From a bacterium (lineage in GTDB: Bacteria; Patescibacteria; Dojkabacteria; JAKAPS01; JAJZLI01): a stretch of DNA of 64,000 bases. Below are positions 1 through 48,493 of the stretch, in pieces (position 1 is the first letter of the stretch; every line of letters starts with the position of its first letter). The notes under the pieces are model-generated. The model did no database searches. It was not told the origin of the DNA and worked only from the letters and a program-made list of their open reading frames with translations. A program made the position numbers and the translations under genes. The stretch covers positions 1 to 64,000 of the forward strand of contig JAJZKG010000003.1 in NCBI GenBank assembly GCA_021809565.1, in the 5' to 3' direction.

Positions 1-169
1 CTTAGAAAAGGGGATAATGTACTTTTATCTCATTTATAACAATTTGAGGTTTTTGAGTAGTTGCAGAAGAGTCAAGGTATATAAAATCTTTTTCTTGGGA
101 TCTAGATCCATTGGATCCAGATCCTCTAAATTTTGCATTTTTAAATATTGGAAAATCTTTTTTATTCAT
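1..169 (-). pseudogene. sufS: N-terminus of SufS-type cysteine desulfurase, interrupted
   Basis: The start codon overlaps the sufC stop as TAATG. The first 55 residues contain DFPIFKN followed by FIYLDSSATTQKPQIVINEI, the N-terminal signature of SufS cysteine desulfurases, which supply sulfur to the SufBCD scaffold using PLP. An in-frame TAA at positions 4-2 ends this frame just where the family continues with its conserved NxHRG segment. Another frame at the same place reads YSPFLS, so a frameshift is possible, but the window ends here. Residues 16-23 (GSGSNGSR) are encoded by two copies of the dispersed GGATC palindrome. Identity as SufS is fairly sure; whether the gene is truly broken is not. 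Confidence 0.6.
98..124. repeat. Two GGATC palindrome units inside sufS
   Basis: Two 12-bp units (98-109 and 113-124), GGATCTAGATCC and GGATCCAGATCC, are separated by ATT, giving a 15-bp period. They encode the glycine/serine-rich stretch near the SufS N-terminus. The same 27 bases occur in the other cysteine desulfurase gene at 32798-32824. Confidence 0.75.
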
Positions 170-930
170 TAAGTTTTTTTAGATTCTAGATTTTTATAAC
201 CTTTCTTATCAATCATATAAGCAAGACTCACATCTCCTTCTTGTACTATTTTACCATCAACCATAATGCTAACTTTTGAAATATTAAGTTTTTCAATAAT
301 TCTTTTTGTATGAGTTATAATCAAAAAAGAAGTTCCTTTTTGATTTAGTTTTTTTATTCCATTACTAATTAACATTAACCCATCAACATCAAGTCCAGAA
401 TCAATTTCATCTAAAATTGCTAATTTGGGTTTTAGAACTGCCATTTGTAATAATTCCAACCTTTTTTTCTCACCTCCTGAAAATCCTTCATTCAAATTAC
501 GAGCAATAAAAGCATCATTTATCCCAAATTCTTTTGATAATTTTCTCAGATCTCTAGCAAATTCGAATATTGGTACATCAATTTTATGTATAGCTTTATA
601 TGAAGCATGCAAAAATGTTCCTACATTAACTCCGGGTACTTCCACCGGATGTTGGAATGAAAGAAATAATCCCATTAATGCTTTTTTAGTTACAGACAGA
701 GTAGTTATATCTTTGTTTAAAAATTCTATCTTTCCAGAATTTATAGAATATGTAGGGTCTCCCATAATAACTTGTGCAAGTGTAGATTTTCCTGATCCAT
801 TGGGTCCCATTATAGCTTGTATAGAACCTGTTTCCATCTTAAAATCTATACCTTTTAAAATCTCTTTGTCACCAGAGCCATGATCCTTTAATCCTGCATT
901 TAAATTTTTTATATTCAATGAATTGTTCAT
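169..930 (-). CDS. sufC: SufC, Fe-S cluster assembly ATPase
   Basis: SufC is the ABC-type ATPase of the SufBCD scaffold complex, in the cytoplasm. At 253 residues it has the usual length. Walker A GPNGSGKST is at residues 42-50, the Q-loop (SFQHP) near 92, the signature FSGGEKKR near 150, Walker B with the SufC-type LDEIDSGLD near 173, and a switch histidine in ITHT. The start codon overlaps the stop of the upstream Rrf2-type gene (ATGA), and its own stop overlaps the sufS start, so it is translated within the leftward suf operon. All motifs are intact. Confidence 0.95.
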   Translation of the reverse strand: MNNSLNIKNLNAGLKDHGSGDKEILKGIDFKMETGSIQAIMGPNGSGKSTLAQVIMGDPTYSINSGKIEFLNKDITTLSVTKKALMGLFLSFQHPVEVPGVNVGTFLHASYKAIHKIDVPIFEFARDLRKLSKEFGINDAFIARNLNEGFSGGEKKRLELLQMAVLKPKLAILDEIDSGLDVDGLMLISNGIKKLNQKGTSFLIITHTKRIIEKLNISKVSIMVDGKIVQEGDVSLAYMIDKKGYKNLESKKT

Positions 931-1320
931 AATATATCTATTAATTTTATCTCTTCAAATTTTGTAATTATCTCTCTATTTATTTTATTTATGATTTTAG
1001 CACTATTACATATTGTAGAATACTTACAACTACCTAAAAAACAATCAGTAAGAGAAAGATTCTTCTCTAGAGATATAAATATATCCCTCATTGATATATC
1101 TTGTGGATTTTTATTCAATAAATATCCGCCATTAATCCCTTCTTTTGAAGATATTAATCCCCCTTTCTTAAGGTAAGATACTATTTTCCTTGAAAAGGCT
1201 AATGGAATCCCCGTAGATTTAGATATTTCCTTTAACTTTATCCTTTTTTTATTCTTAGTATTATTAAAAACAACTGATAAGATTAAAAGTGCATAATCTT
1301 CTTTTTTTTGTTAGTCTCAT
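927..1320 (-). pseudogene. Rrf2/IscR-type Fe-S regulator with a frameshift
   Basis: The C-terminal 63 residues are open in one frame and contain three cysteines spaced C-x4-C-x5-C (DCFLGSCKYSTIC), the cluster-binding region of Rrf2/IscR regulators. Upstream the reading continues to an ATG at 1320 if one base is removed from a run of eight A at 1302-1309. The joined protein starts MRLTKKEDYALLILSVV and carries a winged-helix with KEISKSTGIPLAFSRKIV, typical of the family. It probably senses Fe-S status and controls the suf operon. The frameshift may be a real mutation or a homopolymer sequencing error. The stop overlaps the sufC start. Confidence 0.7.
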
Positions 1321-1384
1321 AAACTTACACCCTAAAAGTATCAGTTTAGAGTATATCAGATTTTATGCTATCTAATCAATAAAA

Positions 1385-1396
1385 GGATCTAGATCC
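1385..1396. repeat. GGATC palindrome, intergenic copy
   Basis: A perfect 12-bp palindrome, GGATCTAGATCC, lies between the Rrf2-type gene and mazF. It belongs to the dispersed repeat family described in the findings. Confidence 0.7.
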
Positions 1397-1433
1397 AAAA
1401 GTGATTTTAAATTTAGAACTATAAAATAAAAAT

Positions 1434-1763
1434 TCAGACAAACAATTTCCTTAGTGCTCCTTTTACTTTCTCAATTTTTCTGGATTTTAAATGTCCAATT
1501 TTAGTTATAACAATTAAAGGTTCCACAGTAAAAATTTTGTCTGGTCGAATAAAACTATCAACTTTGAGCCTACCATCAGAAAAATCATCACTACTCAAAT
1601 GAATAGCTTGTCTACTGATTTCAGCTTTTGAAGTAATCTGACAAAGAATTAGATTATTAAATTCTGCCTGTCCCACTACCAGTGATGGTCTTCTTTTGAA
1701 TTTTGTAAAATCAGCATAAGGAAAATTGATAAGCACTACATCTCCTACTGTAAATATGCCCAT
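1434..1763 (-). CDS. mazF: MazF/PemK-type toxin
   Basis: A 109-residue protein with the PemK/MazF endoribonuclease signature: GDVVLINFPYADF at residues 7-19, then KRRPSLVV, and a late DSFIRPDKIFTV. Family members cleave mRNA at short sites and are neutralised by an antitoxin from the same operon. It overlaps the upstream antitoxin gene by 19 bases. The pair sits inside the suf operon, between the Rieske gene and the Rrf2-type gene, which suggests insertion. No truncation is seen. The identification is firm at family level; the cleavage site is unknown. Confidence 0.85.
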   Translation of the reverse strand: MGIFTVGDVVLINFPYADFTKFKRRPSLVVGQAEFNNLILCQITSKAEISRQAIHLSSDDFSDGRLKVDSFIRPDKIFTVEPLIVITKIGHLKSRKIEKVKGALRKLFV

Positions 1764-1981
1764 GCAGTATCCTCCTCATCAGTATTCCAATCACTTAAAC
1801 TACTTAAACTCAGCATATATTCTTCATTTAATACCACTCGCTTCCTAGATGGTGGTGTTATTTTAATTTCACCGCGCTTAGCTGTAAGCTCAACCTTATC
1901 CTTAAACCCACTTTCTTCAAGTAAAAGTTTAGGTATACGAATACCCTTAGAGTTTCCAACAGTAACAATCTTAGTCAACAT
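1745..1981 (-). CDS. mazE: MazE-type antitoxin (AbrB fold)
   Basis: A 78-residue protein with an N-terminal SpoVT/AbrB swapped-hairpin DNA-binding domain (VTVGNSKGIRIPKLLL, residues 7-22). The acidic C-terminus (SDWNTDEEDTAW) is the part that should occupy the toxin. It is encoded just before and overlapping mazF. The promoter and a palindrome lie directly upstream (1986-2019), consistent with autorepression by the complex. Confidence 0.85.
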   Translation of the reverse strand: MLTKIVTVGNSKGIRIPKLLLEESGFKDKVELTAKRGEIKITPPSRKRVVLNEEYMLSLSSLSDWNTDEEDTAWAYLQ

Positions 1982-1985
1982 AGTA

Positions 1986-2019
1986 ATTACATTGTAATCA
2001 CTATTTAAATTTTTGTCAA
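1986..2019 (-). promoter_or_regulatory. mazEF promoter with operator palindrome
   Basis: On the minus strand a perfect TTGACA (2019-2014) and TACAAT (1996-1991) are separated by 17 bases. The 13-base palindrome ATTACATTGTAAT (1986-1998) covers the -10 element, as expected for autorepression. Confidence 0.65.
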
Positions 2020-2073
2020 CTTTACGTGTTAGTCAATACAAGATTCCCAATATAAAAGTGTTATCCACGATAA

Positions 2074-2407: not shown

Positions 2408-2462
2408 TAGTATTGAAATTTTTTTAATACTATTTAATCAAGGAATCAACAAATGAGTCTTA

Positions 2463-2783: not shown

Positions 2784-2786
2784 ATT

Positions 2787-12867: not shown

Positions 12868-14082
12868 ATGAAAAAATATAATAGAGGATATATTAGTATT
12901 TTTTTAGTAATGATCGGTGTGACCTTAGGTGGGTTATTGTTACATTATAATCTGTTTGCTAATGTATACTATAAGAATATATTAAATACAGATATTTCAT
13001 ATATAAAATCTTCACAATACAGTGACCTCTGGAAACATTTATCCTTATATCAGAAACAAAAATTTAGTAATGAAGATAATTTTACTAATTTTATGAAAAA
13101 TAAATATCATCCTTTGAGTATATCTATCAAGAATTTGACTGTATTAAAGCATACAAACAGAGAAACTATACTATCCGTAATTTTGAATATGCAATCCCAA
13201 AATAAAAACTACATTATACCTAAATATTATAACAATAGCTTCCAAATTGTATTAAATAATGATAATCAATTTATACATATGGGACAGTTTTCCTTAAAAT
13301 CTCCAATAGTAAAAAATACAACTACTGGTAACATGATAATGGACATACCAATCGTTATGTTACACAGAGTCGCACCAACATTTCCACAAAGATCAAGTTT
13401 TAACTCTCAATATGGATATTCTCTTGATTATAATTTAACACTGTTAAGCTCTTCTTTCAATACCCAACTTCAATGGTTAAAAGAAAATAACTACAAAACT
13501 ATAACATTAACACAACTATATAATCACTATTACTATAATACAATTCTTCCTAAAAAACCCATAATCTTAACATTTGATGATGGAAGATTAAGTGCATATA
13601 CCTACGGAGTACCTCTCTTATTAAAATACCATGATACTGCAACATTTAATATAATTACAGGATTTGTAGGTTCAAGTAAAAATAATTATCAATATATGAC
13701 ATGGCCAATTATTAAAAAAATGCAAAAAGAAGGTATGCAAATTGAATCTCATACAGTAACACATCTTGCCCTTGGATCATTACCTACAAATTTAATGCAA
13801 TATCAAATACTAATATCTAAACAAAAATTGGAACAAGAACTTGGAGTTCCAATTCAATTTTTAGCATATCCTTCGGGATCCCCTTTTAGAAATAATGATG
13901 TTCCTAAAATACAAGAATTAATTACTTTAATGGAGCAAGATGGGTACATAGGTGGACTATTGGATCAGAGATATAATCAAACAAAACAAAATCTTGAAAA
14001 TTCTTACCATCTATATAGAATTAGAGACTCTGGGAATATTACACTATCTCAGTTTATATATGAAATTGAAAGTACAGCATAA
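12868..14082 (+). CDS. Membrane-anchored polysaccharide deacetylase
   Basis: A 404-residue carbohydrate esterase family 4 protein. A single N-terminal hydrophobic segment (10-30) anchors or exports it; a spacer of about 150 residues follows. The NodB domain has TFDDG near residue 235 and the metal-binding SHTVTH near 295, with a later YPSGSP. It should remove acetyl groups from peptidoglycan or another N-acetylated glycan at the cell surface. It is transcribed away from the UbiA gene. Confidence 0.85.
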   Translation: MKKYNRGYISIFLVMIGVTLGGLLLHYNLFANVYYKNILNTDISYIKSSQYSDLWKHLSLYQKQKFSNEDNFTNFMKNKYHPLSISIKNLTVLKHTNRETILSVILNMQSQNKNYIIPKYYNNSFQIVLNNDNQFIHMGQFSLKSPIVKNTTTGNMIMDIPIVMLHRVAPTFPQRSSFNSQYGYSLDYNLTLLSSSFNTQLQWLKENNYKTITLTQLYNHYYYNTILPKKPIILTFDDGRLSAYTYGVPLLLKYHDTATFNIITGFVGSSKNNYQYMTWPIIKKMQKEGMQIESHTVTHLALGSLPTNLMQYQILISKQKLEQELGVPIQFLAYPSGSPFRNNDVPKIQELITLMEQDGYIGGLLDQRYNQTKQNLENSYHLYRIRDSGNITLSQFIYEIESTA

Positions 14083-14087
14083 TATAT

Positions 14088-15911
14088 TTACGTATATAGC
14101 TTTATAAAAACATCAGAAGGAATATCCACCTTTCCAAACCTTTTTGTTCTTTTTTTACCTTTTTTCTGTTTTTCCAGTAATTTCATTCTTCTTGTAGGAT
14201 CACCTCCATACAATTTTTGGGTTACATCTTTCCTAAATGCCTTAACATCTTCTCTTGCTACAATTTTACCATTTATACTAGCTTGTATAGGGATAGAAAA
14301 CTGAGTTCTTGGAATGAGATCCTTCAATTTGGAACAATATTGTAAAGCTACTTCTTGTGCTTTATCTTTATGAATTAACATAGCTAAAGGTTCTATAAGT
14401 TCATGATTCACCATAAAATCAACTCTAACAACATCAGTATCAAAAAAGCCAATAAGTGCATAATCCATAGAAGCGTCTCCAGAAGTTAATGATTTTAAGT
14501 CATCAAAAAAATTGAAAATAAGTGATGATAAAGGAAGATTAATTGTTATTATAACCCTCTCAATATTTACACTTTCATTTTGGGAAAATGTGGAATTTAT
14601 AAAAACTCCTCTTTTTGATGATATAAATGAGACAATTTTATTAAAATATTTTTGTGATGCAACAATATCCATAGATACATATGGCTCTTTAATATTTATT
14701 ATTTTTGAGAAATCAGATATTTCGGTAGGACTAGTAATTTCTTTCTCTGTATTGTCATTATATGTAACATGATATTCTACAGAGGGGATACTCATAAAAA
14801 TAGAAACATTATATTCCATCTCTAATCTTTCTTTTATTACATCAGCATGTAGCAATCCTAAAAATCCACATTTATATCCGAAACCTAATATTTCATTAGT
14901 AACAGGTGTAATATCCAGAGAAAAATCATTCAATGCTAATTTTGAGATGGCGTCTTTAAAATTATCTATATCTGCTGCATCTACTGGATATATTGATGCA
15001 AAAACCATACTTTTAGGCTTAGAAAATTCAAATACTGGTTTATCTGTAATATTTTTTACTATTGTATCTTGTACAACCACGTCTTTGACATATTTTATTC
15101 CCGTAGTAATAAAACAAACATCCCCAGCATGTACTTCATTTTGATAATCAAGTTTACCTCTTACATATCCTAATGACAAAACCTGCATAGCTTTTTTCTT
15201 TGAGCAAAAATATATGGTATCACCTTTTTTTAATATACCATCTACAACTTTTACAAGAAGAATAACACCTTGATATTCATCAAAAAAAGAATCAAAAACA
15301 AATCCCCTGAAATTTTTTGGGTATTGATCCATTGGATCTTGATCCTTTGATGTATCACACGAAGGGGGAGGAATTTTTTCTATTATCGTATCTATAAGTT
15401 TCTCTATTCCAATACCTGTTTTACCAGAAGTGAATATTATATCTTCCCTATCAAATCCTAATATTGCCTTAATTTCAGCTAATACTTTATCTATATCTAT
15501 ACCTTTTATATCTACCTTATTTAAAACTGGAATAACTGGGATATCCAATTCTATAGCTTGGAGATAATTTCCTATCGTTTGAGCTTCAATACCTCCAGAT
15601 GCATCTATGAGAAGTATTGCACCATCTGAAGCTCTGAGTGACCTTGCTACCTCTCCTTGAAAATCAACATGTCCTGGTGTATCAATAAGGTTTAAGATAT
15701 AACCCTTATACTCCATACGGATTGTCTGTAGTTTAATTGTAATGCCTCTTTCTCTTTCAAGCTCAAGATTATCTAAAAACTGATCTTTTAAATCTCTCTT
15801 TGATATTGTATGTGTATATTCCAAAAGTTTATCTGACAATGTAGACTTACCATGATCAACATGAGCAATAATTGAGAAATTACGAATTTTAGAAGATGGA
15901 TTAAAATCCAT
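14088..15911 (-). CDS. lepA: LepA, elongation factor 4
   Basis: A 607-residue translational GTPase of full length. G motifs: AHVDHGKSTL at 17-26, RGIT near 56, DTPGHVDF at 78-85, NKVD at 131-134. The LepA C-terminus is present (GGDPTRRMKLLEKQKKGKKR). Between the G domain and domain II, residues about 186-198 carry a short extra stretch (SKDQDPMDQYP) that is encoded by the dispersed GGATC palindrome. It follows rpsT by one base and probably shares its transcript. Confidence 0.95.
   Translation of the reverse strand: MDFNPSSKIRNFSIIAHVDHGKSTLSDKLLEYTHTISKRDLKDQFLDNLELERERGITIKLQTIRMEYKGYILNLIDTPGHVDFQGEVARSLRASDGAILLIDASGGIEAQTIGNYLQAIELDIPVIPVLNKVDIKGIDIDKVLAEIKAILGFDREDIIFTSGKTGIGIEKLIDTIIEKIPPPSCDTSKDQDPMDQYPKNFRGFVFDSFFDEYQGVILLVKVVDGILKKGDTIYFCSKKKAMQVLSLGYVRGKLDYQNEVHAGDVCFITTGIKYVKDVVVQDTIVKNITDKPVFEFSKPKSMVFASIYPVDAADIDNFKDAISKLALNDFSLDITPVTNEILGFGYKCGFLGLLHADVIKERLEMEYNVSIFMSIPSVEYHVTYNDNTEKEITSPTEISDFSKIINIKEPYVSMDIVASQKYFNKIVSFISSKRGVFINSTFSQNESVNIERVIITINLPLSSLIFNFFDDLKSLTSGDASMDYALIGFFDTDVVRVDFMVNHELIEPLAMLIHKDKAQEVALQYCSKLKDLIPRTQFSIPIQASINGKIVAREDVKAFRKDVTQKLYGGDPTRRMKLLEKQKKGKKRTKRFGKVDIPSDVFIKLYT
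15326..15345. repeat. GGATC palindrome inside lepA
   Basis: One full unit, GGATCTTGATCC (15334-15345), plus a half unit at 15326-15330 separated by ATT. On the lepA strand it encodes KDQDPMDQ, a different reading frame from the copies in the cysteine desulfurase genes. Confidence 0.7.
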
Positions 15912-15912
15912 T

Positions 15913-16296
15913 TTATTTCTTTGTCTTTATAACCTTTGAATTCAGATTCTTTGGAGTTAAATTTTTTGAACCTAGATTTTTTGAAATTGAACTCTTGGAG
16001 GTCTTGTTATCCACTTTTCGTATCTTAGATTTTACAACTTTAAAATCTGCAGACATAGAACCTTTCAAGAGAATTTTAGATAATCTTGATTTTTCTCTTG
16101 CAGCCTTATTTTTATGATAGATATTTTTCTTAGCCATCTTATCAATAATAGAAAACAGCTCTGATAAAGATTTTTGGTCAGGGTTTTTGTTATAGGCCTT
16201 GGTCATTTTATCAACATTAGTTCTATAACCATTGTTGAGAAAGGTTCTTCTTTTAGTTCTTCTTATATCTTTCAAAGATGATTTTAAATTTGCCAT
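15913..16296 (-). CDS. rpsT: Ribosomal protein S20 with C-terminal extension
   Basis: The first 85 or so residues match bS20 (MANLKSSLKDIRRTKRRT, later IIDKMAKKNIYHKNKAAREKS). About 40 extra lysine- and asparagine-rich residues follow (SKNLGSKNLTPKNL), giving 127 in total against the usual 85-90. It binds 16S rRNA in the small subunit. TATACT (16311-16306 on the minus strand) lies 9 bases before ATG, so the transcript may be leaderless. lepA follows directly. Confidence 0.9.
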   Translation of the reverse strand: MANLKSSLKDIRRTKRRTFLNNGYRTNVDKMTKAYNKNPDQKSLSELFSIIDKMAKKNIYHKNKAAREKSRLSKILLKGSMSADFKVVKSKIRKVDNKTSKSSISKNLGSKNLTPKNLNSKVIKTKK

Positions 16297-16380
16297 ATGG
16301 GCTTTAGTATACTAGAAAAATTACTCTAAATCAAATCATTAAATTAAAAATAATGGTTTAAATAAATATTATATGTTTTT

Positions 16381-16454
16381 GGAGGAGGAGGAGATAGTGC
16401 TTTAAAAGTTTTATATAAGGGTTACCCCAACTTTTAAGAACACTACCCCTCCTC
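16381..16454. other. Long imperfect inverted repeat (hairpin)
   Basis: The left arm, 16384-16410, runs from GAGGAGGAGATAGTG to AAAAGTT. It pairs with the right arm, 16429-16454, which runs from AACTTTT to CCCCTCCTC. About 22 of 25 positions pair, around an 18-base loop that itself contains GGGTTACCC. It lies between the 3' end of the L,D-transpeptidase gene and the rpsT start. It could be a terminator for the former, a leader structure for the latter, or part of an insertion. No T run follows on the minus strand. Confidence 0.6.
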
Positions 16455-16525
16455 TCTCTCAACTATTTATCAGTAACTCTGAGAAGGACCGTACGAATAC
16501 GATAACTTCTACCATGCTACTGAAG

Positions 16526-16538
16526 GGATCTTAGATCC
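16526..16538. repeat. GGATC palindrome variant, intergenic
   Basis: GGATC-TTA-GATCC, with a three-base centre, downstream of the L,D-transpeptidase gene. It belongs to the dispersed repeat family. Confidence 0.55.
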
Positions 16539-16586
16539 AAAGTTCTTTTTATCCTAATAGAGGCCCTCCATAAAATATGGATCTTA

Positions 16587-17765
16587 CTACGCAGGTTGAA
16601 ACTGAGACCAGGGGATATTCCAATCTCCTTCACCGTTTTGTGCTTCATTTGCTTTGAGCGTAGTTCCTGAGATGATGACCACATCACCTGGTTGGGAAAA
16701 GTTGTAGAACCACTGAGCATGATTAGGGTTTTGTTCTACACAGCCAAAAGAAACATTGTAGTGACCGTGATCATACACATCCCAAGGTGCACTATGTATG
16801 AAGTACCCGTCTGTACTAATGGCTACATCAAGATATACGTTTTCAGCGTAGATCCCTGGATACCCAATAGTAGCAGAATTCATGAACACTACTGGATCTT
16901 TGTAAAGAACCACTAATGTTCCAGATATTGTTTGGAACCCAGATCTCCCAAGACTAACAGGAAACGTATATAAAAGTTGGGTTCCATTGTAAACTTGCAT
17001 CTGATCAGTTACAGCACTGATTTTAGTCAGATGCTGATTCACCACCGTAAACGCACTCTGAACAGATGAACCAACGAGTCTCTTGCCACCGAGTACCAAA
17101 CCGTTTAGGTTAACCTTGAGTGTGGCATTCTCGTTCATGGGCCAAAAGTTTTGTGGTCTACCATCCACCTCAGTCTGAGACCACCAATGCCACCCTATAG
17201 GATCTGCAATAGACTCTGTAGTCTGAAGCCTAGATAAAACCTCCTGTTGTAACGCTTCTGGAATGGGAGTAGAAAACTGAACTACCCATGTTGCCCCCAT
17301 ACCTACTTGCTGACCATTAGAAGGAGAAACCGTGATGTTCACAGTTCCAGCCGGCAATGGTTGCAATGCAGTTTTGAAGGTAACATTTTTACTTACAGTC
17401 CGTACTGGATATCCACCACGTGCCGCAAGTGAGAAATCGAATTGAGTATCCCACGCCATCTGTTGTACTGGTATCCACCTGTAGAACTCTGACTTATTCG
17501 ATCCTCCATACGAAGACACCAGCTTTCCTTGAACAACAGTTCCACTTTGGGTTTTCACAACCAAGGTTACAATACGTGCATCCTTTGTTGAGATCCCAAT
17601 ATTCGCATTTGGACTTACCAATCCACCTGATACTGGCACTGTTACCTGAACCTGCGGAGAGATGTGCTTGATTGCTGGTTTATGTAAACCTGTTACCAAG
17701 ACTGCTCCCATAAAGCCCAATCCAACAAGCACCAAAAATATCAGAACCTTTCGTACCATACGCAT
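16587..17765 (-). CDS. L,D-transpeptidase (YkuD), probably transferred
   Basis: A 392-residue exported enzyme that would form 3-3 crosslinks or attach proteins in peptidoglycan. An N-terminal signal/anchor (5-26) is followed by two Ig-like regions and the YkuD domain with His324, His335, Ser339 and Cys342. The motif is SFGC rather than SHGC. The domain order and the HSAPWDV...NVSFGC...AQWFY pattern resemble actinobacterial Ldt proteins. The gene is visibly richer in GC (near 45 %) than its surroundings and has a perfect AAAGGAGGT 7 bases before ATG, unlike most neighbours. Transfer from another bacterium, perhaps a host, is likely. Confidence 0.85.
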   Translation of the reverse strand: MRMVRKVLIFLVLVGLGFMGAVLVTGLHKPAIKHISPQVQVTVPVSGGLVSPNANIGISTKDARIVTLVVKTQSGTVVQGKLVSSYGGSNKSEFYRWIPVQQMAWDTQFDFSLAARGGYPVRTVSKNVTFKTALQPLPAGTVNITVSPSNGQQVGMGATWVVQFSTPIPEALQQEVLSRLQTTESIADPIGWHWWSQTEVDGRPQNFWPMNENATLKVNLNGLVLGGKRLVGSSVQSAFTVVNQHLTKISAVTDQMQVYNGTQLLYTFPVSLGRSGFQTISGTLVVLYKDPVVFMNSATIGYPGIYAENVYLDVAISTDGYFIHSAPWDVYDHGHYNVSFGCVEQNPNHAQWFYNFSQPGDVVIISGTTLKANEAQNGEGDWNIPWSQFQPA

Positions 17766-17853
17766 TGTGTAACCTCCTTTGGAGTGTTCATTGTGGAAAA
17801 AAACGTGACTTAACCTGTCTCCCTCTATGTTGAATTATTAAAGAACACCTAGT

Positions 17854-17859
17854 ATTATA
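17854..17859 (-). promoter_or_regulatory. Extended -10 for the L,D-transpeptidase
   Basis: On the minus strand TGGTATAAT (an extended -10, TGnTATAAT) lies about 90 bases upstream of the ATG, leaving a conventional leader with a strong Shine-Dalgarno. No good -35 is visible. Confidence 0.4.
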
Positions 17860-17935
17860 CCACACACAAAGGTATATTTAGATTAAAAGATATAGGAAAA
17901 TAATTGAGTAATTAATCAAGAAGAAAATTTAGTAC

Positions 17936-18340
17936 TTAATGAAATTCAGACCTGATTTTCACAAGATAAAATAATATTACAAGACCAAATACACTTGATA
18001 TAATAAAAACATTATTAAATGATTTGGATATCAATGATAAATAAATAGAATATACTACTGCAAGAAATATAGTTATACAATAAAGAACATATCCATATTT
18101 TCTCATTCTAATCAATCCTATACCACAAATTATGTCCATAACCCCATAGATAAGTGCAGCAAAACCTAATAACATTAATGATAAGGAAAACTGATGGAAA
18201 CTAGAAAAAACAAATACAATCCCAATAAATACTGGAAATGCCCCACTTAAAATATACAGCACCGCTATAACACCTACCAAAATCGGTCTTTGTATAGAAA
18301 AGCTTTTGTTCATTGAATTACCTGAGAGTTCTTGTTCCAC
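17936..18340 (-). CDS. Four-helix membrane protein, unknown function
   Basis: A protein of up to 134 residues with four hydrophobic segments and little else. The first possible start is a GTG at 18340; an ATG at 18313 (MNKSFSIQRP) is an alternative. No recognised family, although small DoxX-like or DUF proteins look similar. It follows the response regulator gene in the same direction with a 50-base gap. Confidence 0.55.
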   Translation of the reverse strand: MEQELSGNSMNKSFSIQRPILVGVIAVLYILSGAFPVFIGIVFVFSSFHQFSLSLMLLGFAALIYGVMDIICGIGLIRMRKYGYVLYCITIFLAVVYSIYLSLISKSFNNVFIISSVFGLVILFYLVKIRSEFH

Positions 18341-18390
18341 AATATATAGTAAAATAATATATCACATTTAGGTTTGGGATCCATAGTATC

Positions 18391-18795
18391 CTAACTTCCA
18401 ACTACCTTACTGCTATCGAAAAACGCTTCTACCTCATCAATGATTTGGTTTGGTAATAGGTTAGATTTTACAAAATAACCATTAGCCCCAAGATCAAAAG
18501 CATTCTTTATTATCTCATCATATCCAAGGTTAGTAAGCATAAAAATTGGCAAGTTTTTGGATTTATTTTCTGTAGATCTAATTTCTTTTAAAACATCTAT
18601 CCCTGTCTTTTTAGGAAGCATAATATCAAGCATAATAAAATCAAAATCATCAGCCAATGCTTTTGATACAGCATCTTCCCCATCATAAGCATTAACTACA
18701 ACATAACCCCTTTTAGTAAAAAATTGGTTATATATATCAGATAGAAAAAGATCATCTTCAACTATTAATACCTTTTTACTCTTTACTTCATCCAT
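18391..18795 (-). CDS. Single-domain response regulator
   Basis: A 134-residue CheY-like receiver with no output domain. The acidic pocket is IVEDD (11-15), the phosphorylated residue is Asp57 in MLDIMLP, and the switch residues are in MLTN and YFVKSN. It lies directly downstream of a histidine kinase gene and should receive its phosphate. A TATAGT box 8 bases before the ATG suggests it also has its own leaderless promoter. It is the only response regulator in a window with three histidine kinase genes. Confidence 0.9.
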   Translation of the reverse strand: MDEVKSKKVLIVEDDLFLSDIYNQFFTKRGYVVVNAYDGEDAVSKALADDFDFIMLDIMLPKKTGIDVLKEIRSTENKSKNLPIFMLTNLGYDEIIKNAFDLGANGYFVKSNLLPNQIIDEVEAFFDSSKVVGS

Positions 18796-18818
18796 AATAC
18801 AAAACTATAAAAAAATTA

Positions 18819-19796
18819 TTAGCTATGCTCCAATGCATTATCTGGTAAAGAAAAATAGAACGTTGAACCTTTCTTCTCTTTACTCTCTACCCACATTTTC
18901 CCTTTATGCATATTTATTATCCTATCTGCTATATACAACCCAAGCCCAGTACCTTTAACCTGTATCTCACTATTTTCTGCTCTAAAGAACTTTTCAAATA
19001 TCTTATTAACATTTTCTTCAGATATTCCTATTCCATTATCCTTTACACTCACAATAAAATTATTATTTCCTTTTGGATCTTGATCCTTCCTAACTTCAAC
19101 AACAATTTTACCACCATGTAATGTATAATTTATAGCATTATTTATTAAATTAGACAATACTTCTTCTATTTTTAATTTATCAGCTACTATAGGTGCATTA
19201 GTAAGTTCACTTTTTAGTATAATCTGTTGCTTCTTTTGTGACGCATATGAATAAAAATCATCAATTATTTTTTTTGTTACATCTAGCAGATCAAATTCTT
19301 TTCTATCAATAGTTAAAGAATCTTCATCCATTAAAGATACACTTAAAAGATTCTCTAGTAGACCTAAAAGATGTTCAGACTGTATCTCAATTTTTTCTAC
19401 ATACTTTTTTATATCTTGTGATACACCTTTAGATATTTCAGGGTCATTTAAAAGAAGGTAAGTATAACCCTTAATAATGGATACTGGAGATCTAATCTCA
19501 TGGGCAATAACAGACATAAACCCTATATTCTTATCCTTATTTGCTGATAAATTAGATTGAGTCTGTTCAGGTTTATTATTAGATATAAAATTCTCTATCT
19601 CTTTAAACTTCTTATCTACATTATCTTGTATCTCATATAGGGCAAAAAGTATAAAAAATATGATTACAAGGAATAGTATCCAAAAGATTAGAAAAAAAGA
19701 GAAAAATGAGGATATATAGAAATTCAAAACATAACCTAAAACAACGAAGATTAGGAAAAATCCAGCTATTTGAAATATTTTTTTCATATCATTCAT
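18819..19796 (-). CDS. Sensor histidine kinase
   Basis: A 325-residue membrane kinase. Two hydrophobic helices (10-28 and 31-53) are joined without a large external loop, followed by a coiled linker, a HisKA domain with His99 in VIAHEIRSP, and a HATPase with NNAINYT, DNGIGIS and GTGLGLYIAD. Between two HATPase strands (about 237-242) a KDQDPK insert is encoded by the GGATC palindrome at 19075-19086. The response regulator gene follows 23 bases later. Confidence 0.92.
   Translation of the reverse strand: MNDMKKIFQIAGFFLIFVVLGYVLNFYISSFFSFFLIFWILFLVIIFFILFALYEIQDNVDKKFKEIENFISNNKPEQTQSNLSANKDKNIGFMSVIAHEIRSPVSIIKGYTYLLLNDPEISKGVSQDIKKYVEKIEIQSEHLLGLLENLLSVSLMDEDSLTIDRKEFDLLDVTKKIIDDFYSYASQKKQQIILKSELTNAPIVADKLKIEEVLSNLINNAINYTLHGGKIVVEVRKDQDPKGNNNFIVSVKDNGIGISEENVNKIFEKFFRAENSEIQVKGTGLGLYIADRIINMHKGKMWVESKEKKGSTFYFSLPDNALEHS
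19075..19086. repeat. GGATC palindrome inside a histidine kinase gene
   Basis: GGATCTTGATCC encodes KDQDPK in a loop of the ATPase domain, the same reading as the copy in lepA. Confidence 0.65.
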
Positions 19797-19890
19797 CTAC
19801 ATTCAGTATACAAAAAAGGCAGTTTTTATACAATCTATAAATTGTCTTGGTGTTTCAATAGAAAATATTTTAAGTTATAATAAACTACAT

Positions 19891-20292
19891 ATGGATAAAT
19901 ATTCATTGTTTACAGACGCAGGATCAAGGGGAAACCCAGGTAAGGCATCATATGGTATATACCTATTCAAGAATGATCAGCTTCTTGATTTTGATGGGAA
20001 ATACTTAGGTATCAAAACAAATAATCAGGGAGAGTTTACGGCTTTAAAAGAAGGTATTTTAATTGCTATAAAACACAATATTAAAAATTTAGACTGTTTT
20101 TCAGATAGTGAACTTTTAATAAAACAAATCAATCATGAGTATAAAGTTAAAGATCCATATTTAAAAGGTATAATTAAAGAAATTTATGATTTATCAGAAA
20201 ATTTTGATACAATTACATATACTCATGTTAGACGTGAGTATAATAAGTTTGCCGATAAAATGGTGAACATAGTATTAGATGCAGTAGGATGA
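19891..20292 (+). CDS. RNase H-like nuclease
   Basis: A 133-residue protein of the RNase HI fold. It has the first acidic residue in FTDAGSRGNPG (residue 8), a second in NNQGEFTAL (Glu48), a third in FSDSELL (Asp69) and a last in NKFADKMV. It would degrade RNA in RNA-DNA hybrids; the short, basic-protrusion-free form resembles the RnhA-like group near archaeal enzymes. TATAAT (19876-19881) lies 9 bases before ATG. Its stop overlaps the next start (ATGA). Confidence 0.88.
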   Translation: MDKYSLFTDAGSRGNPGKASYGIYLFKNDQLLDFDGKYLGIKTNNQGEFTALKEGILIAIKHNIKNLDCFSDSELLIKQINHEYKVKDPYLKGIIKEIYDLSENFDTITYTHVRREYNKFADKMVNIVLDAVG

Positions 20293-23039: not shown

Positions 23040-24980
23040 TTATATACCTTCCTCTTGCCATATCTCCAAATTATTTCCGATAAGTTTTAGAAAATTGACA
23101 TTATATAAGGATATATATTTTAAGTTATATAGAATTTTCACAGCTGGATAGAATGGGTCACAACCTCCAAGATCACGGTAATCATATATCCCATTATATC
23201 CTATTAAGCTTCCATTTATAACTAATTGTTTATAATTTCTTTGTGTAGTTCCTCCAGCTCCTCCATAAGCACCATTTGTCCCACCAACACATACAGGTTG
23301 TACTGGAGGTTCACATCCTGGTGCAGAACCACCTGAAGTACAAAGAAGTCCACTCCAATTAACAGTTGTACTACCAGAACAATTAGCATATTTAGTAGAT
23401 TTTACTGTAAAAGTTACTGGAGTACTAGGCGAAGAGCTCGGATCATTTTCTGAAACATTAGTAGGAGATCCACTATATACTACAGAACTTGTGGATACAG
23501 AACCAGCATTAGATGATATATCTAATGTATCACCATTAGGAGCAAGTACTCCATTGAGTTTTTCTGTGATACCCAAAGTAGTAGCACCACCTACTGTAGG
23601 GTTTGACGGGCTAGCAGATACGGATATTGAACATGTACTACTACCACTTCCCCAAGAAACAGTTACCTTGCCAGAACAATTAGAGTATTTTCCTGATGCA
23701 ACCGTGAATATAACAGTATTGGGAGATGATCCCGGATCATATTCTGTTGGATTAGAAACACCAAGGCTATTTGTTGTTGGATTAGTCTTAGTAGGAGTAC
23801 CACTATTAGAAGTTATCTTTAGAGTATCTCCACTTACATTAGAGCCATTATATGTCTCATGAATAGTAAAAATTGTATAACTGCCAGATGCAGGATTTGT
23901 TGGTTTTGCAGATACCGTTATAGAACAACCTCCACTTCCCCACTTTACAGTAACTGTATTAGAACAATTAGAATATTTCCCCGATGCTACCGTAAATATA
24001 ACAGTATTGGGGGGCGACCCCGGATCATATTCCGTTGGATTAGAAATACCAGAGCTATTTGTTGTAGGATTGGTTTTTGTTGGAGTACCACTATTAGAAG
24101 TTATCTTTAAAGTATCACCACTTACTGGAGAACCATTATTTGTCTCATTGATGGTAAGTATAGTGTAACTACCTTTTGCAACACTGGATGGATTTGCAGA
24201 TACTGTTATTGAACAACCAGATGTTGGTGGAGATCCAGATGTATATATCTTAACAGTATAATTATACGTAGTTCCATTGGAAAAATTAAGACCACTCATA
24301 CTAGTCTCTTGAACTCCATTAATTGTAACATAGCTATAACTACTTGGTGGTGTTATACTTAGTGTAAAAGGTGAGAAACCACAATCAAGAGAACCATTAG
24401 GTGACAAGGAATAAACTCCATTAGAATTAGTCTTTCCTGAAGATTCATAATATGCACTATTAGCACTTCCAGTAGGAGACGTATATTGAGATGGATATTG
24501 TAAATATTTACCCTGATTTATAGCATAATACCCATTAACAAAATCCCAACACCGAGATGGACACTGATTTCCAGTAAACCAATAATTATATGAAGGTCCC
24601 CATTGATATTCATATGACACATGCCCTAAGCTATTCATTACCCCTGTTCTTCCACCATAAGGAGAACCTTTTATACTAACACCTACACCACTATATACAC
24701 TTTGAGTACCATTGGAAGATACATCATATACCTTAACATTTAATCCAACACTACCAGAACTAACACTTTTTGTACTGGAACAACCAGAACCATTTGAATT
24801 AGGGCATTCATAATAAAAATAAGTACTTCCAGTGGTGCTACTTCCACCACTGGTACCACCGCCACCTACAATTAGAGCATGTGTAGGTTTAGCTGATACA
24901 GAGGATAATACTAAAAACACTGCAAAAAACAGTACTGTAACACCTAAAAATCTCCTACTTATAACAAAAATACTTTGCAT
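23040..24980 (-). CDS. Large secreted protein with three Ig-like repeats
   Basis: A 646-residue protein with a signal/anchor (about 10-30) and a Gly/Ser/Tyr/Cys-rich N-terminal domain. It has three tandem repeats of 94-98 residues starting at Cys256, Cys352 and Cys450 (CSITVSA...GDTLKITSN...GKYSNCS). The C-terminal 90 residues (YKQLVINGSLIGYN and DLGGCDPFYPAVK) form a separate domain. Paired cysteines in each repeat suggest disulfides. It may be an adhesin or S-layer-like protein. The next gene upstream ends 2 bases away, so they form an operon. Confidence 0.7.
   Translation of the reverse strand: MQSIFVISRRFLGVTVLFFAVFLVLSSVSAKPTHALIVGGGGTSGGSSTTGSTYFYYECPNSNGSGCSSTKSVSSGSVGLNVKVYDVSSNGTQSVYSGVGVSIKGSPYGGRTGVMNSLGHVSYEYQWGPSYNYWFTGNQCPSRCWDFVNGYYAINQGKYLQYPSQYTSPTGSANSAYYESSGKTNSNGVYSLSPNGSLDCGFSPFTLSITPPSSYSYVTINGVQETSMSGLNFSNGTTYNYTVKIYTSGSPPTSGCSITVSANPSSVAKGSYTILTINETNNGSPVSGDTLKITSNSGTPTKTNPTTNSSGISNPTEYDPGSPPNTVIFTVASGKYSNCSNTVTVKWGSGGCSITVSAKPTNPASGSYTIFTIHETYNGSNVSGDTLKITSNSGTPTKTNPTTNSLGVSNPTEYDPGSSPNTVIFTVASGKYSNCSGKVTVSWGSGSSTCSISVSASPSNPTVGGATTLGITEKLNGVLAPNGDTLDISSNAGSVSTSSVVYSGSPTNVSENDPSSSPSTPVTFTVKSTKYANCSGSTTVNWSGLLCTSGGSAPGCEPPVQPVCVGGTNGAYGGAGGTTQRNYKQLVINGSLIGYNGIYDYRDLGGCDPFYPAVKILYNLKYISLYNVNFLKLIGNNLEIWQEEGI
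23352..24215 (-). repeat. Tandem coding repeats of about 290 bp
   Basis: Three units: 24215-23928, 23927-23634 and 23633 to about 23352. Units 1 and 2 are nearly identical at DNA level and the third is diverged, which suggests a recent duplication. They encode the Ig-like repeats of the surface protein. Confidence 0.75.
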
Positions 24981-31927: not shown

Positions 31928-33106
31928 GTGAATAAAAACTATATATACTTTGACAATTCAGCTACAACAAAAATCGATCAGAGAGTGATTAATGAAATGA
32001 TTCCTTATATAGAAACCTTGTATGGAAATCCATCAAGTTTACATATAGAAGGCCAGAAAGCCAGAAGAGTTATTGATAAAGCGAGAGAAATAATTGCTTC
32101 ATATATAGGGTCAGATATACAAGAGGTTATTTTTACATCTGGAGGAACCGAAAGTAATAATACCGTAATAAATGGTGTAGCTCATGCATTAAAGAAGAAG
32201 GGGAATCATATAATAACAACCTCTATAGAACATGATTCAATACTAAAACCCCTAGAGAACTTGGAAGGATTTGACATAACATATTTAAAACCATCAATTA
32301 CAGGACATATATCCCTAGAGGATCTAAAATCAAAAATCAGAGATGATACTATCCTTATATCAATAGCATATGCTAATTCAGAAATAGGATCAATTCAAGA
32401 TATTCAAAAAATAGCAGAAATAGCTCATGAAAAAGGAGTACTGATACATACAGATGCAATGCAAGCAGCAAAATATAGGGATATAAATGTAAAAAATATT
32501 GGCGTTGATCTTATGACTTTTGGTGCACATAAAATAAATGGACCTAAAGGAATTGGAGCTTTATTCATAAAAAGAGGAACTATGATAAAACCTCTATTGT
32601 ACGGAGGATCTCAGGAATATAGGTTTAGAGGAGGGACTGAAAATACACCATTAATTGCAGGATTTGCTAAAGCAGTAGAAATCCTACGCAATGAAAAAGA
32701 TGATAGATCAAAATATGTAAAATCATTGAGAGATTTATTTGAGTCTAGTCTGCAGAATTATTTAAAAGATATAAAAATAAATGGATCAAAATCCATTGGA
32801 TCTGGATCCAATGGATCTAGATCCAATGGTGAAGGAGACAGATTAGAAAGCATATCTAATATATATTTTAAAAATGTATCTACTGAAACTATGATCATAA
32901 ATTTAGACATGAAAGGTATAGCTGCATCAGCAGGTTCGGCATGCTCTTCTTTATCTATTGAACCTTCACATGTTTTAACATCTATAGGGTTAAGTATTGA
33001 GGAAGCTAAACATTCTGTAAGGTTTAGTTTTGGTCATGAAAATACAGAATCTGAAATAGAGAGTAGTATAAAGATAATAAGAGACATATATGGAAGTCAA
33101 TTATAA
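31928..33106 (+). CDS. Cysteine desulfurase, NifS/IscS type
   Basis: Starts at GTG 31928. It has 392 residues, with YFDNSATTK at 7-15, HDSI, PLP-binding Lys202 in GAHKINGPKG, and the sulfur-carrying Cys339 in GSACSS. It releases sulfur from cysteine for Fe-S clusters or tRNA thiolation. Residues 286-300 are three tandem pentapeptides (GSKSI, GSGSN, GSRSN) made by the GGATC palindrome, in the loop before the active cysteine. No tRNA thiolase gene is adjacent. The next gene starts 17 bases before its end. Confidence 0.92.
   Translation: MNKNYIYFDNSATTKIDQRVINEMIPYIETLYGNPSSLHIEGQKARRVIDKAREIIASYIGSDIQEVIFTSGGTESNNTVINGVAHALKKKGNHIITTSIEHDSILKPLENLEGFDITYLKPSITGHISLEDLKSKIRDDTILISIAYANSEIGSIQDIQKIAEIAHEKGVLIHTDAMQAAKYRDINVKNIGVDLMTFGAHKINGPKGIGALFIKRGTMIKPLLYGGSQEYRFRGGTENTPLIAGFAKAVEILRNEKDDRSKYVKSLRDLFESSLQNYLKDIKINGSKSIGSGSNGSRSNGEGDRLESISNIYFKNVSTETMIINLDMKGIAASAGSACSSLSIEPSHVLTSIGLSIEEAKHSVRFSFGHENTESEIESSIKIIRDIYGSQL
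32783..32824. repeat. Three tandem GGATC palindrome units in a desulfurase gene
   Basis: Units at 32783-32794, 32798-32809 and 32813-32824 with 15-bp period: GGATCAAAATCC, GGATCTGGATCC, GGATCTAGATCC, joined by ATT or AAT. The period keeps the reading frame. Confidence 0.85.
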
Positions 33107-44382: not shown

Positions 44383-45678
<1,296 letters not shown>

Positions 45679-45688
45679 TGTTTTCAAG

Positions 45689-46159
45689 ATGGAGAATTTA
45701 GATTTTTATAAAGATGTTGCTCCCCATTCGGATCTTGACCCTACACAGCAAACTTTACACCAATTATATGAAGTTATTGATAGTATAACTATATCAGGAA
45801 TAACCTTTGATGGTGTACATAGTTATTTACTAGAAGGAGTTAAAGGCAGATTGATCTTAATAGAGAGGAACGTAATACAGATATCTCAAAGAACATATGA
45901 TAATGATAATGTACCGCTAGTATCTATACTAGTTATACGAGATAACATAGTAAACTGTGAATATCAATTGAAAAAAAATGATGGAGTATTATCTATCGAA
46001 CGATATTCTACGTTATATCCATTAAAAAGTAATGATCCTGCAATACCTGATCCTCTAAAATTAGAACGTTTTTTAGGTATTACCAGAACAACAGAACTAG
46101 AAATACAAACACTTATAGGAGTTTTCAGTAGAGCCAAAACATTTGAACATTATCAATAA
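45689..46159 (+). CDS. Hypothetical protein
   Basis: 156 residues, soluble, acidic, without recognised motifs. It has a beta-rich middle (GRLILIERNVIQISQRTY) and a helical C-terminus. TATAAT (45674-45679) overlaps the purA stop and lies 9 bases before ATG, so it has its own leaderless promoter. Its end overlaps the convergent gene by 7 bases. Confidence 0.55.
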   Translation: MENLDFYKDVAPHSDLDPTQQTLHQLYEVIDSITISGITFDGVHSYLLEGVKGRLILIERNVIQISQRTYDNDNVPLVSILVIRDNIVNCEYQLKKNDGVLSIERYSTLYPLKSNDPAIPDPLKLERFLGITRTTELEIQTLIGVFSRAKTFEHYQ

Positions 46160-46467: not shown

Positions 46468-46625
46468 GTATTTATACTAACATTATATATACTTAATTAC
46501 AATAAACATTAATTATTAAAATTTCATTAATGTTTTCTAAATATACATATAAGCATAATTATGGTACAATGAAGAATATTGACTAATAGTAGATATTGAA
46601 GGTCAGACATTAGATTAAGATCATT

Positions 46626-46637
46626 GGATCAAAATCC
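46626..46637. repeat. GGATC palindrome variant, intergenic
   Basis: GGATCAAAATCC, preceded by GATCATT (a half unit), upstream of the helicase gene. Confidence 0.55.
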
Positions 46638-46695
46638 TTGAAATCCTACCCCAAAAATTCTATTCTTTTTCATAGATAATTTATAGTTTAAAATT

Positions 46696-48105
46696 ATGCA
46701 AACAAGGTTGTATATAGCTAATTTGCCTTTTTCTTTTAATAGAGATGACATGACTCGCCTATTTTCTAAATATGGGAAGATCGTAGATGTTTATGTACCT
46801 GAGAAAAAAGGATTTGGCTTTTTAGAAATGTCTAATTCTAATGAAGCTTTAAATGTAATTAATAATGTTGATAAAAGAATGATTGAAGGTAGAAAACTAT
46901 CAGTAGTATTTGCACAAAAAAGGGCTGAAAGAACTTATACTAATAACAATAATAAAAATTATGATACTAAACCATCCTTTAGAAAAAATAAGATAGATTC
47001 AAAAAAAATAGATATTTCATTATTCGTTAAAGAATCATCTTTGAATAATGCATCTGAATATGTATCTCAAAATAAATTTACTGATTTTAAAATCAGTAAT
47101 GAAATAAAAAGTATAATAGAGAAAAGAGGTTTTATATCCCCTACTGTTATACAAGATAAGACAATTCCAGAAATAATAAGAGGTCGTGATGTAATTGGAA
47201 TTGCTGATACAGGAACAGGTAAAACTGCTGCATTTCTGATACCACTTATAGATAAAATAATAAAAGATAATGCACAAAAGGTATTAATTATAGCCCCTAC
47301 AAGAGAATTAGCATCACAAATAAGAGATGAGCTTTTTCAATTCTCTAAAGGGTTACCTATAAGATCAGCCCTACTCATTGGAGGGAGTTCTATGTACCAA
47401 CAAATAAACAATCTAAAAAACAATCCTAATTTTATTATTGGAACTCCAGGTAGAATTAAAGATTTAACCTCTAAGCACTATGTACCACTAAAGGATATAA
47501 ATAATGTTGTTTTAGATGAAGTTGACAGAATGCTTGATATGGGGTTTATAGAAGATATTCAAAATATATTTTCATTCCTTCCTTTATCAAGACAATCATT
47601 ATTTTTTTCTGCAACAGTACCACCTAAAGTTAAAACTTTAGCAGTAAAGCTTTTGAAAGACCCTATTATAGTTACTGTAGAGCCTAAAGATTCCTACAAT
47701 AATATAACACAGAATATCGTAAAATATAGAGATACTTCTGAAAAAATAGAATTACTACACAACCTATTAATAAAAGATGAATATAAGAAGGTCCTTATAT
47801 TCAACAGGACGAAGAGAGATGTTGATAATCTCGCAAAAGAATTATTGAAGAGAGGTTTCAAAGTAGAGTCGATACATGGAGATAAAATGCAGTCAAGAAG
47901 ACAAAGAGCTATAGATAATTTTAAGAATAATGTAAATAATATCCTTGTAGCTACTGATGTTGCAGCAAGAGGTTTAGATATAAGTGATATATCACATGTG
48001 ATAAATTATGAGATACCATCAACTTATGAAGATTACCTCCATAGAATAGGCAGAACTGGAAGAGCAAATAAACAAGGTTCTTCTATAACATTTGTTAAAA
48101 TATAA
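46696..48105 (+). CDS. DEAD-box RNA helicase with N-terminal RRM
   Basis: 469 residues. Residues 1-75 form an RNA recognition motif (RNP2 LYIANL at 5-10, RNP1 KGFGFLEM at 38-45). A basic Asn/Lys linker follows, then a full helicase: Q-motif with PTVIQDKTIP, Walker A ADTGTGKT, DEVD in place of DEAD, SAT, ARGLDIS and HRIGRTGR. Bacterial DbpA carries its RNA-binding domain at the C-terminus, so an N-terminal RRM fusion is unusual. Likely roles are ribosome assembly or RNA turnover. TATAGT lies 8 bases before ATG. Confidence 0.9.
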   Translation: MQTRLYIANLPFSFNRDDMTRLFSKYGKIVDVYVPEKKGFGFLEMSNSNEALNVINNVDKRMIEGRKLSVVFAQKRAERTYTNNNNKNYDTKPSFRKNKIDSKKIDISLFVKESSLNNASEYVSQNKFTDFKISNEIKSIIEKRGFISPTVIQDKTIPEIIRGRDVIGIADTGTGKTAAFLIPLIDKIIKDNAQKVLIIAPTRELASQIRDELFQFSKGLPIRSALLIGGSSMYQQINNLKNNPNFIIGTPGRIKDLTSKHYVPLKDINNVVLDEVDRMLDMGFIEDIQNIFSFLPLSRQSLFFSATVPPKVKTLAVKLLKDPIIVTVEPKDSYNNITQNIVKYRDTSEKIELLHNLLIKDEYKKVLIFNRTKRDVDNLAKELLKRGFKVESIHGDKMQSRRQRAIDNFKNNVNNILVATDVAARGLDISDISHVINYEIPSTYEDYLHRIGRTGRANKQGSSITFVKI

Positions 48106-48134
48106 ATATTAGTAATAATATTGTATAATCAGGT

Positions 48135-48476
48135 ATGGAGACAAATTCTCACATACCAGCACAAGAAACATTAGGAAATGTAACTCTAGAAATGCTGGGA
48201 TGTATACGAGAGCATATGGAATCCAGAGTGTCTCAACAAAATCTTAATTTACATATATTTGTTAAACATACAACAGGCGTCATTAGCGTATTCAAGATTA
48301 CAAGAGAAACAAAAATAGAAGCTGATAGAAAAACACTTCTACTCCACCAAGGAAGATTAAAAGTAGTAATTCCATATGAAGAAATGGATGAAGTCTCTGT
48401 ATCTCCTAACAATGACATAGATAATCAAACTGGGCTACCTGCGAAAGACACTACAATATTTCACTATAAAAAATAA
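48135..48476 (+). CDS. Hypothetical protein
   Basis: 113 residues, soluble; no recognised family. A run of beta strands (LHIFVKHTTGVISVFKI, then GRLKVVIPYEEMDEVSVS) suggests a small beta fold. TATAAT at 48124-48129 ends 5 bases before ATG, so it is expressed separately from the helicase gene 30 bases upstream. Confidence 0.55.
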   Translation: METNSHIPAQETLGNVTLEMLGCIREHMESRVSQQNLNLHIFVKHTTGVISVFKITRETKIEADRKTLLLHQGRLKVVIPYEEMDEVSVSPNNDIDNQTGLPAKDTTIFHYKK

Positions 48477-48483
48477 TCACTTT

Positions 48484-48493
48484 ATCTAGATCC
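48484..48493. repeat. Partial GGATC palindrome
   Basis: ATCTAGATCC, lacking the first two bases of the unit, just after the hypothetical gene. A degenerate member of the family. Confidence 0.4.

Follow-up and report, generated by a model that had tools for sequence, protein, structure and literature searches.

How did one 12-bp palindrome, GGATC-NN-GATCC, come to lie both between genes and inside unrelated enzyme genes of a patescibacterial genome? The question is raised by positions 1 to 64,000 of contig JAJZKG010000003.1 (hereafter the window, i.e., the whole 64-kb stretch analysed), in which a sequence-only reading had noticed the palindrome and had likened it to the Rickettsia palindromic elements (RPEs), only far smaller. 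The palindrome is found inserted in comparison with close relatives, is restricted to one lineage, recurs at periods of 15 or 14 bp, is bordered by short direct repeats, is conserved as DNA over peptide, and is multiplied by local duplication. We favour, with a probability of about 0.58, the explanation that it is a lineage-restricted, non-autonomous micro-palindrome, which spreads by insertion with target duplication and is then duplicated locally.

The palindrome is far too frequent in the window to be there by chance. Seven exact copies of GGATCNNGATCC start at positions 98, 113, 1385, 15334, 19075, 32798 and 32813, against 0.047 expected from the half-site counts, and 60 second-order Markov simulations of the window yielded none. 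Allowing up to two mismatches gave 31 matches against 11.4 expected (maximum among 100 shuffles, 19); hence, about one-third of these loose matches are to be ascribed to chance. The dispersed palindrome that had been claimed is therefore real, and its coordinates hold, with some corrections given below.

For comparison we used a sample of 379 Patescibacteria genomes, in which the closest relative found, genome G196, has a LepA 94% identical to that of the window; a single-sequence LepA scan had returned at least 80 loci at 42-46% identity, and G196 came instead from the phylum search. That the window itself is patescibacterial was judged from named LepA relatives at 55% identity. The window is collinear with C2 of G196, one 715-bp block matching C1 instead, and the identity amounts to 83-87% across approximately three-quarters of the aligned length and to 73-82% across the remainder. 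The units and the genes that bear them are as follows.

98..124, minus strand: two units, GGATCTAGATCC-ATT-GGATCCAGATCC, located N-terminally in a SufS-like desulfurase of which the window covers about 56 residues; encodes GSGSNGSRS
1385..1396, no strand assigned: single unit GGATCTAGATCC outside called open reading frames (ORFs), AAA at either side
14088..15911, minus strand: array-bearing lepA (elongation factor 4); Pfam LepA_C and GTP_EFTU, 12-protein alignment
15319..15345, minus strand: two units in lepA, the first degenerate; KDQDPMDQYP; +30 bp against G196, TTT at both flanks
15938..15994, minus strand: degenerate array of 15-bp period, four units by eye, located C-terminally in the counterpart of the G196 ribosomal protein S20 gene
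16526..16538, no strand assigned: variant unit with a TTA centre (GGATC-TTA-GATCC), outside called ORFs; AAG at one flank and AAA at the other; +16 bp against G196
18819..19796, minus strand: histidine kinase gene with one unit; Pfam HisKA and HATPase_c
19075..19086, minus strand: one unit, within the histidine kinase gene; read as KDQDP; +15 bp against G196
31928..33106, plus strand: array-bearing IscS-type cysteine desulfurase gene; Pfam Aminotran_5, solved relatives named cysteine desulfurase
32783..32824, plus strand: three units separated by ATT and AAT, one mismatch in the first; GSKSIGSGSNGSRSN; +45 bp against G196, AAT at both flanks
45730..45741, plus strand: one-mismatch unit GGATCTTGACCC, coding for part of a protein of 156 residues that has no Pfam match; +15 bp against G196
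46626..46637, no strand assigned: degenerate unit GGATCAAAATCC outside called ORFs; mutated form in G196 (older copy or chance)
48482..48493, no strand assigned: partial match with two mismatches, may be chance

The desulfurase at the window start is presumably SufS, a name that we take from its N-terminal motif. Among the sites reported earlier, 98-124 is present as two units rather than one, and 32783-32824 consists of three; the site placed at 15326-15345 exists as well, its true extent being 15319-15345, and that at 16526-16538 is a palindrome with a centre of three bases, not two. The palindrome reported at 46626-46637 stands as a one-mismatch match, but it is not a fresh insertion, since G196 has it too, in mutated form, while the copy placed at 48484-48493 is a partial match only. 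The coding unit at 45730 was missing from the earlier list. The one-mismatch match at 55698 was rejected as an insertion, as G196 aligns there gap-free.

Comparison with G196 revealed five insertions in the window, of 30 bp in lepA, 15 bp in the histidine kinase gene, 45 bp in the IscS-type desulfurase gene, 15 bp at 45730 and 16 bp at 16523, and one reverse case, in which an IMP-dehydrogenase-like gene of G196 (C2:125117) carries 30 extra bp, split over two alignment gaps. The empty site of the desulfurase reads AAT once and the filled site has AAT at both sides; likewise, the empty lepA site reads TTTTTT and the filled one has TTT at both sides. Neither of these two empty sites holds any similar starting sequence. 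At 98-124, G196 has a diverged two-unit array, and its alignment ends at 1384, so the unit at 1385 has no empty site for comparison. Ten of the 54 window-G196 alignment gaps of at least 6 bases measure 15, 30 or 45 bp, not every one of which includes the palindrome; a few further inserts are palindromic but differ in sequence. Near C2 ~124512 of G196 (window ~8396), a 40-bp insertion in G196 contains two degenerate units and a duplicated neighbouring stretch.

The proteins give the same picture. The extra residues of LepA number 10 in the window and 5 in P0005, and are absent from P0006 and nine distant relatives; the IscS-type desulfurase has three units in the window, two in P0125 and P0126 (98% identical), and none in P0127 or seven distant relatives. 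Conservation of such residues across distant relatives had been named as a refutation of the earlier reading; they are missing from all those aligned (nine for LepA, seven for the desulfurase). RecJ of G196 has one array in common with P0245 only and a second that all nine aligned relatives lack. Most sites differ in position between the window and G196, and the ages of the insertions differ too: the sufS array has diverged in G196, and in the S20 gene a unit is still exact in G196, the array of the window being degenerate. The S20 protein of G196 (L103 7421-7774) comprises 118 residues, of which 1-74 match the family, and its palindrome units lie in the C-terminal extension. Other array-bearing genes of G196 encode UvrC, RsmH, TsaD and ValS (like S20, above curated cut-offs), MurC-, PBP2-, GrpE- and IMP-dehydrogenase-like proteins (below them), RecJ, and TraG-like and PrgI-like proteins; the last two, at L106 7673-9325 and 17001-18905, suggest a type IV secretion-like gene set. 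Most presence/absence differences probably reflect gain rather than loss.

The distribution is equally narrow. A genome-wide count, made on G196, yielded 52 exact copies of GGATCNNGATCC in ~770 kb and none of the reversed pattern, in line with the proposed enrichment, while seven of nine other genomes of the same order have no copy, G385 has two and G386 one. With one mismatch allowed, 91 copies were found in 396 kb of G196, taken mostly around listed exact copies, against 6 in 371 kb of five relatives of the order. The tandem form occurs in 1 of the 379 sampled genomes. The two GGATCTAGATCC copies of G385, which belongs to another genus of the order, lie at L116 ~456-467 and L117 ~458-469 with TTT at both flanks and share no context; one adjoins, by eye, a ribosome-binding-site-like word. 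A search of plasmids with window positions 14000-19900 gave no near match. Viral spread was rejected: one scan of viral contigs for the tandem pattern returned a single stretch, L111, from a contig of very G+C-rich sequence, and its GGATCCGGATCC pair looks like chance.

The unit itself is a 5-2-5 palindrome of 12 bp, separated from the next by 3 bp in genes (period 15) and mostly by 2 bp between genes (period 14). In the G196 stretches fetched and the window together, with at least one exact unit required per array, 46 arrays comprise 107 units, 58 of them exact, and 13 arrays are single-unit. The 61 spacings within arrays were 15 bp in 50 cases and 14 bp in 11. Of 27 period-15 arrays, 26 lie inside called ORFs and the remaining one is that of sufS, cut by the window start; five of six period-14 arrays lie outside called ORFs, and the sixth sits at the extreme 5' end of an ORF, probably upstream of the true start. 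The association of period with coding location (6 against 26 arrays; Fisher's test, 1.1e-6) is partly built in, because steps of 14 bp would disrupt the reading frame; more telling is that noncoding arrays, free to use either period, are 14. Centres of 0 or 1 bases never occur, and a centre of 3 occurs once in G196 and once in the window.

What is conserved is the DNA and not the peptide, as had been proposed from the use of two frames: the palindrome is read as GSxS in the desulfurases and as KDQDP in lepA and the histidine kinase gene, exactly as claimed. Within ORFs of at least 90 residues, the exact palindrome encodes 36 of the 55 GSxS peptides present (G196 stretches, 34 of 51; window, 2 of 4), against ~2% expected by codon usage, TCC making up 7% of serine codons; it also encodes 10 of 14 DxDP peptides. 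Changed units retain pairing beyond that of shuffled halves (176 of 245 cells against 163.8; p 0.0066). Moreover, G196 has 260 palindromes with at least two G/C per arm and a centre of 2 bases, against 172 expected, of which 51 are GGATC; a smaller excess at centre length 3 (215) partly reflects the GATCC-NNN-GGATC spacing between units (23). The families GGGTC, GAACC, GGTAC and GCATC are also enriched in G196, some of them in 15-bp tandem. Such tandems of other 5-2-5 palindromes were observed at L098 ~11657 (GGTACNNGTACC), L097 ~15599 (GAACCNNGGTTC) and L096 ~948 (CCATCNNGATGG). Five relatives of the order, of similar G+C, showed no 5-2-5 excess (139 against 141 expected; 55-100 kb each, 371 kb in all). 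The two GATC sites of each unit look incidental, because the D12-class methylase signal of G196 is weak (one short match, 34 of 253 positions) and the minor families free of GATC are 5-2-5 as well; across six genomes PF02086 gave short matches everywhere (34-102 of 253) and one long match, in G266, and no link of these matches to the palindrome was seen.

The edges of the arrays carry a signal of their own. When the 3 bp flanking each array were compared as direct repeats, 76 of 138 bases matched against 51.2 expected, a value reached in none of 5000 permutations; no signal was left when one flank was shifted by 3 or 6 bases (p 0.06 to 0.58) or when the edges were compared as inverted repeats. 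Single units taken alone behave likewise (23 of 39 flank bases, 16.4 expected, p 0.01), as do the two-base flanks of the six 14-bp arrays (10 of 12, p 0.05). The first outside base is A or T at 93% of the 92 edges, the background being 70%. These repeats match what a target duplication of 2-3 bp would leave, and we infer that they arose in this way.

In the explanation that we favour, the 12-bp unit would enter an A/T-rich position, leaving a target duplication of 2-3 bp, and would then duplicate head to tail locally. An event of 12+3 would add 15 bp, in genes mostly a polar GSxS or DxDP stretch, and could survive there because 15 bp preserves the reading frame, with selection retaining such events in genes, while one of 12+2 would add 14 bp and be retained only between genes. 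The cutting and joining would presumably be the work of an enzyme acting in trans. The 27 bases reported as common to both desulfurase genes are shared exactly, but inverted (98-124 is the reverse complement of 32798-32824); since the same 27-mer stands in the two genes in opposite orientation, two-unit modules may also move. Among all arrays, 24-mers are shared only by this pair and by one pair inside a single gene.

The most serious rival, although in our judgement an unlikely one, needs no mobile unit: palindrome minisatellites would grow and shrink through slippage during replication and repair templated by hairpins, and microhomology or gene conversion would now and then copy them from one locus to another. 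Neighbouring units tend to be alike, which means that much of the array growth is local duplication; they share spacers in 9 of 28 cases (2.3 expected). Single-strand folding is favourable for arrays of two units (27-mer, -6.8 kcal/mol, z -2.5) and of three (42-mer, -12.4 kcal/mol, z -4.4), and the paired changes that keep the palindrome could reflect hairpin-templated correction. However, this view leaves the same 12-mer arising in lepA and the desulfurase where the empty sites had nothing similar; a lone unit folds weakly (-0.6 kcal/mol), single units and a six-unit array folding no better than shuffles, and the relatives of similar G+C are without the 5-2-5 excess. We find it improbable that the palindrome is a selected protein-binding or DNA-uptake word of 5-2-5 symmetry that accumulated genome-wide. 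The turnover of site positions between the window and G196 speaks against this, the in-frame insertions and the tandem arrays inside enzyme and housekeeping genes are not accounted for, and uptake words would be expected to be denser than 52 copies per ~770 kb, even though single intergenic copies exist, which might still be protein-binding sites, both G385 copies are TTT-flanked despite having no shared context, and the dyad symmetry is retained in the minor families.

Marginally less probable again is that the units are footprints of a lost transposon with GGATC ends, i.e., two 5-bp ends and a 2-bp join between target duplications. Such an end-to-end remnant would fit the dyad symmetry, the variable 2-bp centre and the direct repeats of 2-3 bp; imprecise excision, however, would not give a constant 5+2+5 size or tandem periods of 14 and 15, and no match to the transposase families searched in G196, nor an evident multi-copy insertion sequence in the half of it compared with itself, was seen. 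As for the idea that the encoded peptides were selected as flexible linkers (GSGS or DPDP), arrays inside called ORFs do use the two polar frames (GSxS 27; DxDP 9, including the 5'-end case) and never the third, IxI; nevertheless, identical DNA stands in two frames and between genes, and the share of GSxS peptides encoded by the exact palindrome contradicts this idea, to which we give hardly any credence.

Several observations weigh against the insertion of a mobile unit with target duplication. Perfect 3-bp direct repeats occur in only 8 of the 46 arrays (3.4 expected, p 0.012), four-base flanks exceed chance as well (68 of 184, 54 expected, p 0.006), and repeated spacers contribute to the edge signal in arrays; the direct-repeat signal by which a target duplication like that of miniature inverted-repeat transposable elements (MITEs) would show is above chance, yet the repeats are rarely perfect and the signal is in part confounded by the spacers. 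Matching by eye at four sites (45730, 16523, the histidine kinase gene and G196 C2:125117) extends to only two of three flank bases. Adjacent units share their centres in 26 of 61 cases (10.5 expected). With two mismatches allowed and outside ORFs of at least 90 residues, 8 spacings are 14 bp and 4 are 15 bp, one of these being that of sufS. Among the sampled genomes, only G196 is near enough for comparison at the DNA level, and a search of it for Y1_Tnp, RVT_1, rve, DDE_Tnp_1, DDE_3, IS110-type transposase and Cas1 found none, many other families lying outside that search. Integration of the kind known from clustered regularly interspaced short palindromic repeats was rejected, as six genomes have no Cas1. 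Self-comparison of about half of G196 showed diverged repeats, the pairs being short apart from one of ~356 bp (88% identity), and no repeat was annotated; the window has a 288-bp head-to-tail pair of its own (23637-24212, 80% identity), to which a stretch near 23355 is related.

The idea of a tiny proliferating palindrome, RPE-like but far smaller, is supported by the presence/absence differences, the lineage restriction, the two frames and the edge repeats, from which we infer that the palindrome is mobile. Tentatively, and at somewhat less than even odds, we propose in addition a self-spreading unit with a 12-bp core, which some unrecognised trans-acting activity would mobilise through staggered cuts of 2-3 bp and which would be tolerated in essential genes as a five-residue insertion, the 5-2-5 design being kept while the sequence drifts into sister families.

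The comparisons with known systems that follow rest on the excerpts of the papers cited. RPEs are palindromic DNA of 105-150 bp, found in frame in unrelated housekeeping genes and between genes, with a conserved peptide (PMC2229807, PMC10969869); the Wolbachia palindromic elements appear as a cited title in one of these sources. Like RPEs, the present palindrome is inserted in frame in unrelated genes (lepA, desulfurase, RecJ and others) and between genes; unlike them, its unit measures 12 bp (14-15 bp net), forms tandem arrays and encodes GSxS or DxDP according to frame. The GC clusters of yeast mitochondria (GC42) are described as G+C-rich hairpins of 42 nt with direct repeats of 2-3 bases (AG or ACT), rapid turnover, merging units and an unsettled mechanism (PMC4478555). 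They resemble our unit in being short palindromes with 2-3 bp direct repeats (statistical here, and not at every copy) that are polymorphic between close relatives, but our unit has about one-third of their length, and GC42 hosts have reverse transcriptases, none of which was detected in G196. MITEs possess longer end repeats around a core, span 39-400 bp in one example, and show direct repeats in young copies (PMC10969869), and repetitive extragenic palindromes (REPs) measure 20-40 bp (PMC3733652). With both, the palindrome shares probable non-autonomy, inverted repeats, A/T-rich targets and a tendency to direct repeats; unlike MITEs as described there, it has neither core nor longer end repeats (five transposase families being undetected in G196), and unlike REPs it is shorter and G196 has no match to the REP-type Y1 transposase (PF01797). 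The PARCEL (palindromic amphipathic repeat coding element) repeats of Mollicutes, 75-nt tandem coding repeats of 25 amphipathic residues with palindromic DNA, build repeat proteins (PMC2996958); our unit is likewise a tandem coding repeat with palindromic DNA, but inserts five residues into enzymes. A literature search, beyond the reach of which most subscription journals lay, found no description of the unit or of such elements in Patescibacteria, and the 10 publications listed, of 14 containing such 12-mers as letters, were unrelated, judging by their titles. The palindrome appears to work like RPEs and GC clusters, by a mechanism that may be new.

If the insertion reading is true, the unit would be shorter than the elements compared above, as far as the cited excerpts describe them (REPs 20-40 bp, GC42 42 nt, RPEs 105-150 bp), and would have spread in a genome that is small and gave no match to seven common families of transposase, reverse transcriptase and integrase. 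It would offer a tractable case for how very short palindromes spread, a question common to the mitochondrial GC clusters. It would also provide a natural series in which 5, 10 or 15 residues have been added to core enzymes (LepA, IscS-type desulfurase, RecJ, UvrC, TsaD, ValS, S20), and would illustrate one route to loop insertions and terminal extensions. In this uncultured, ultra-small bacterium the palindrome sits even in essential genes, where steps of 15 bases keep the protein readable.

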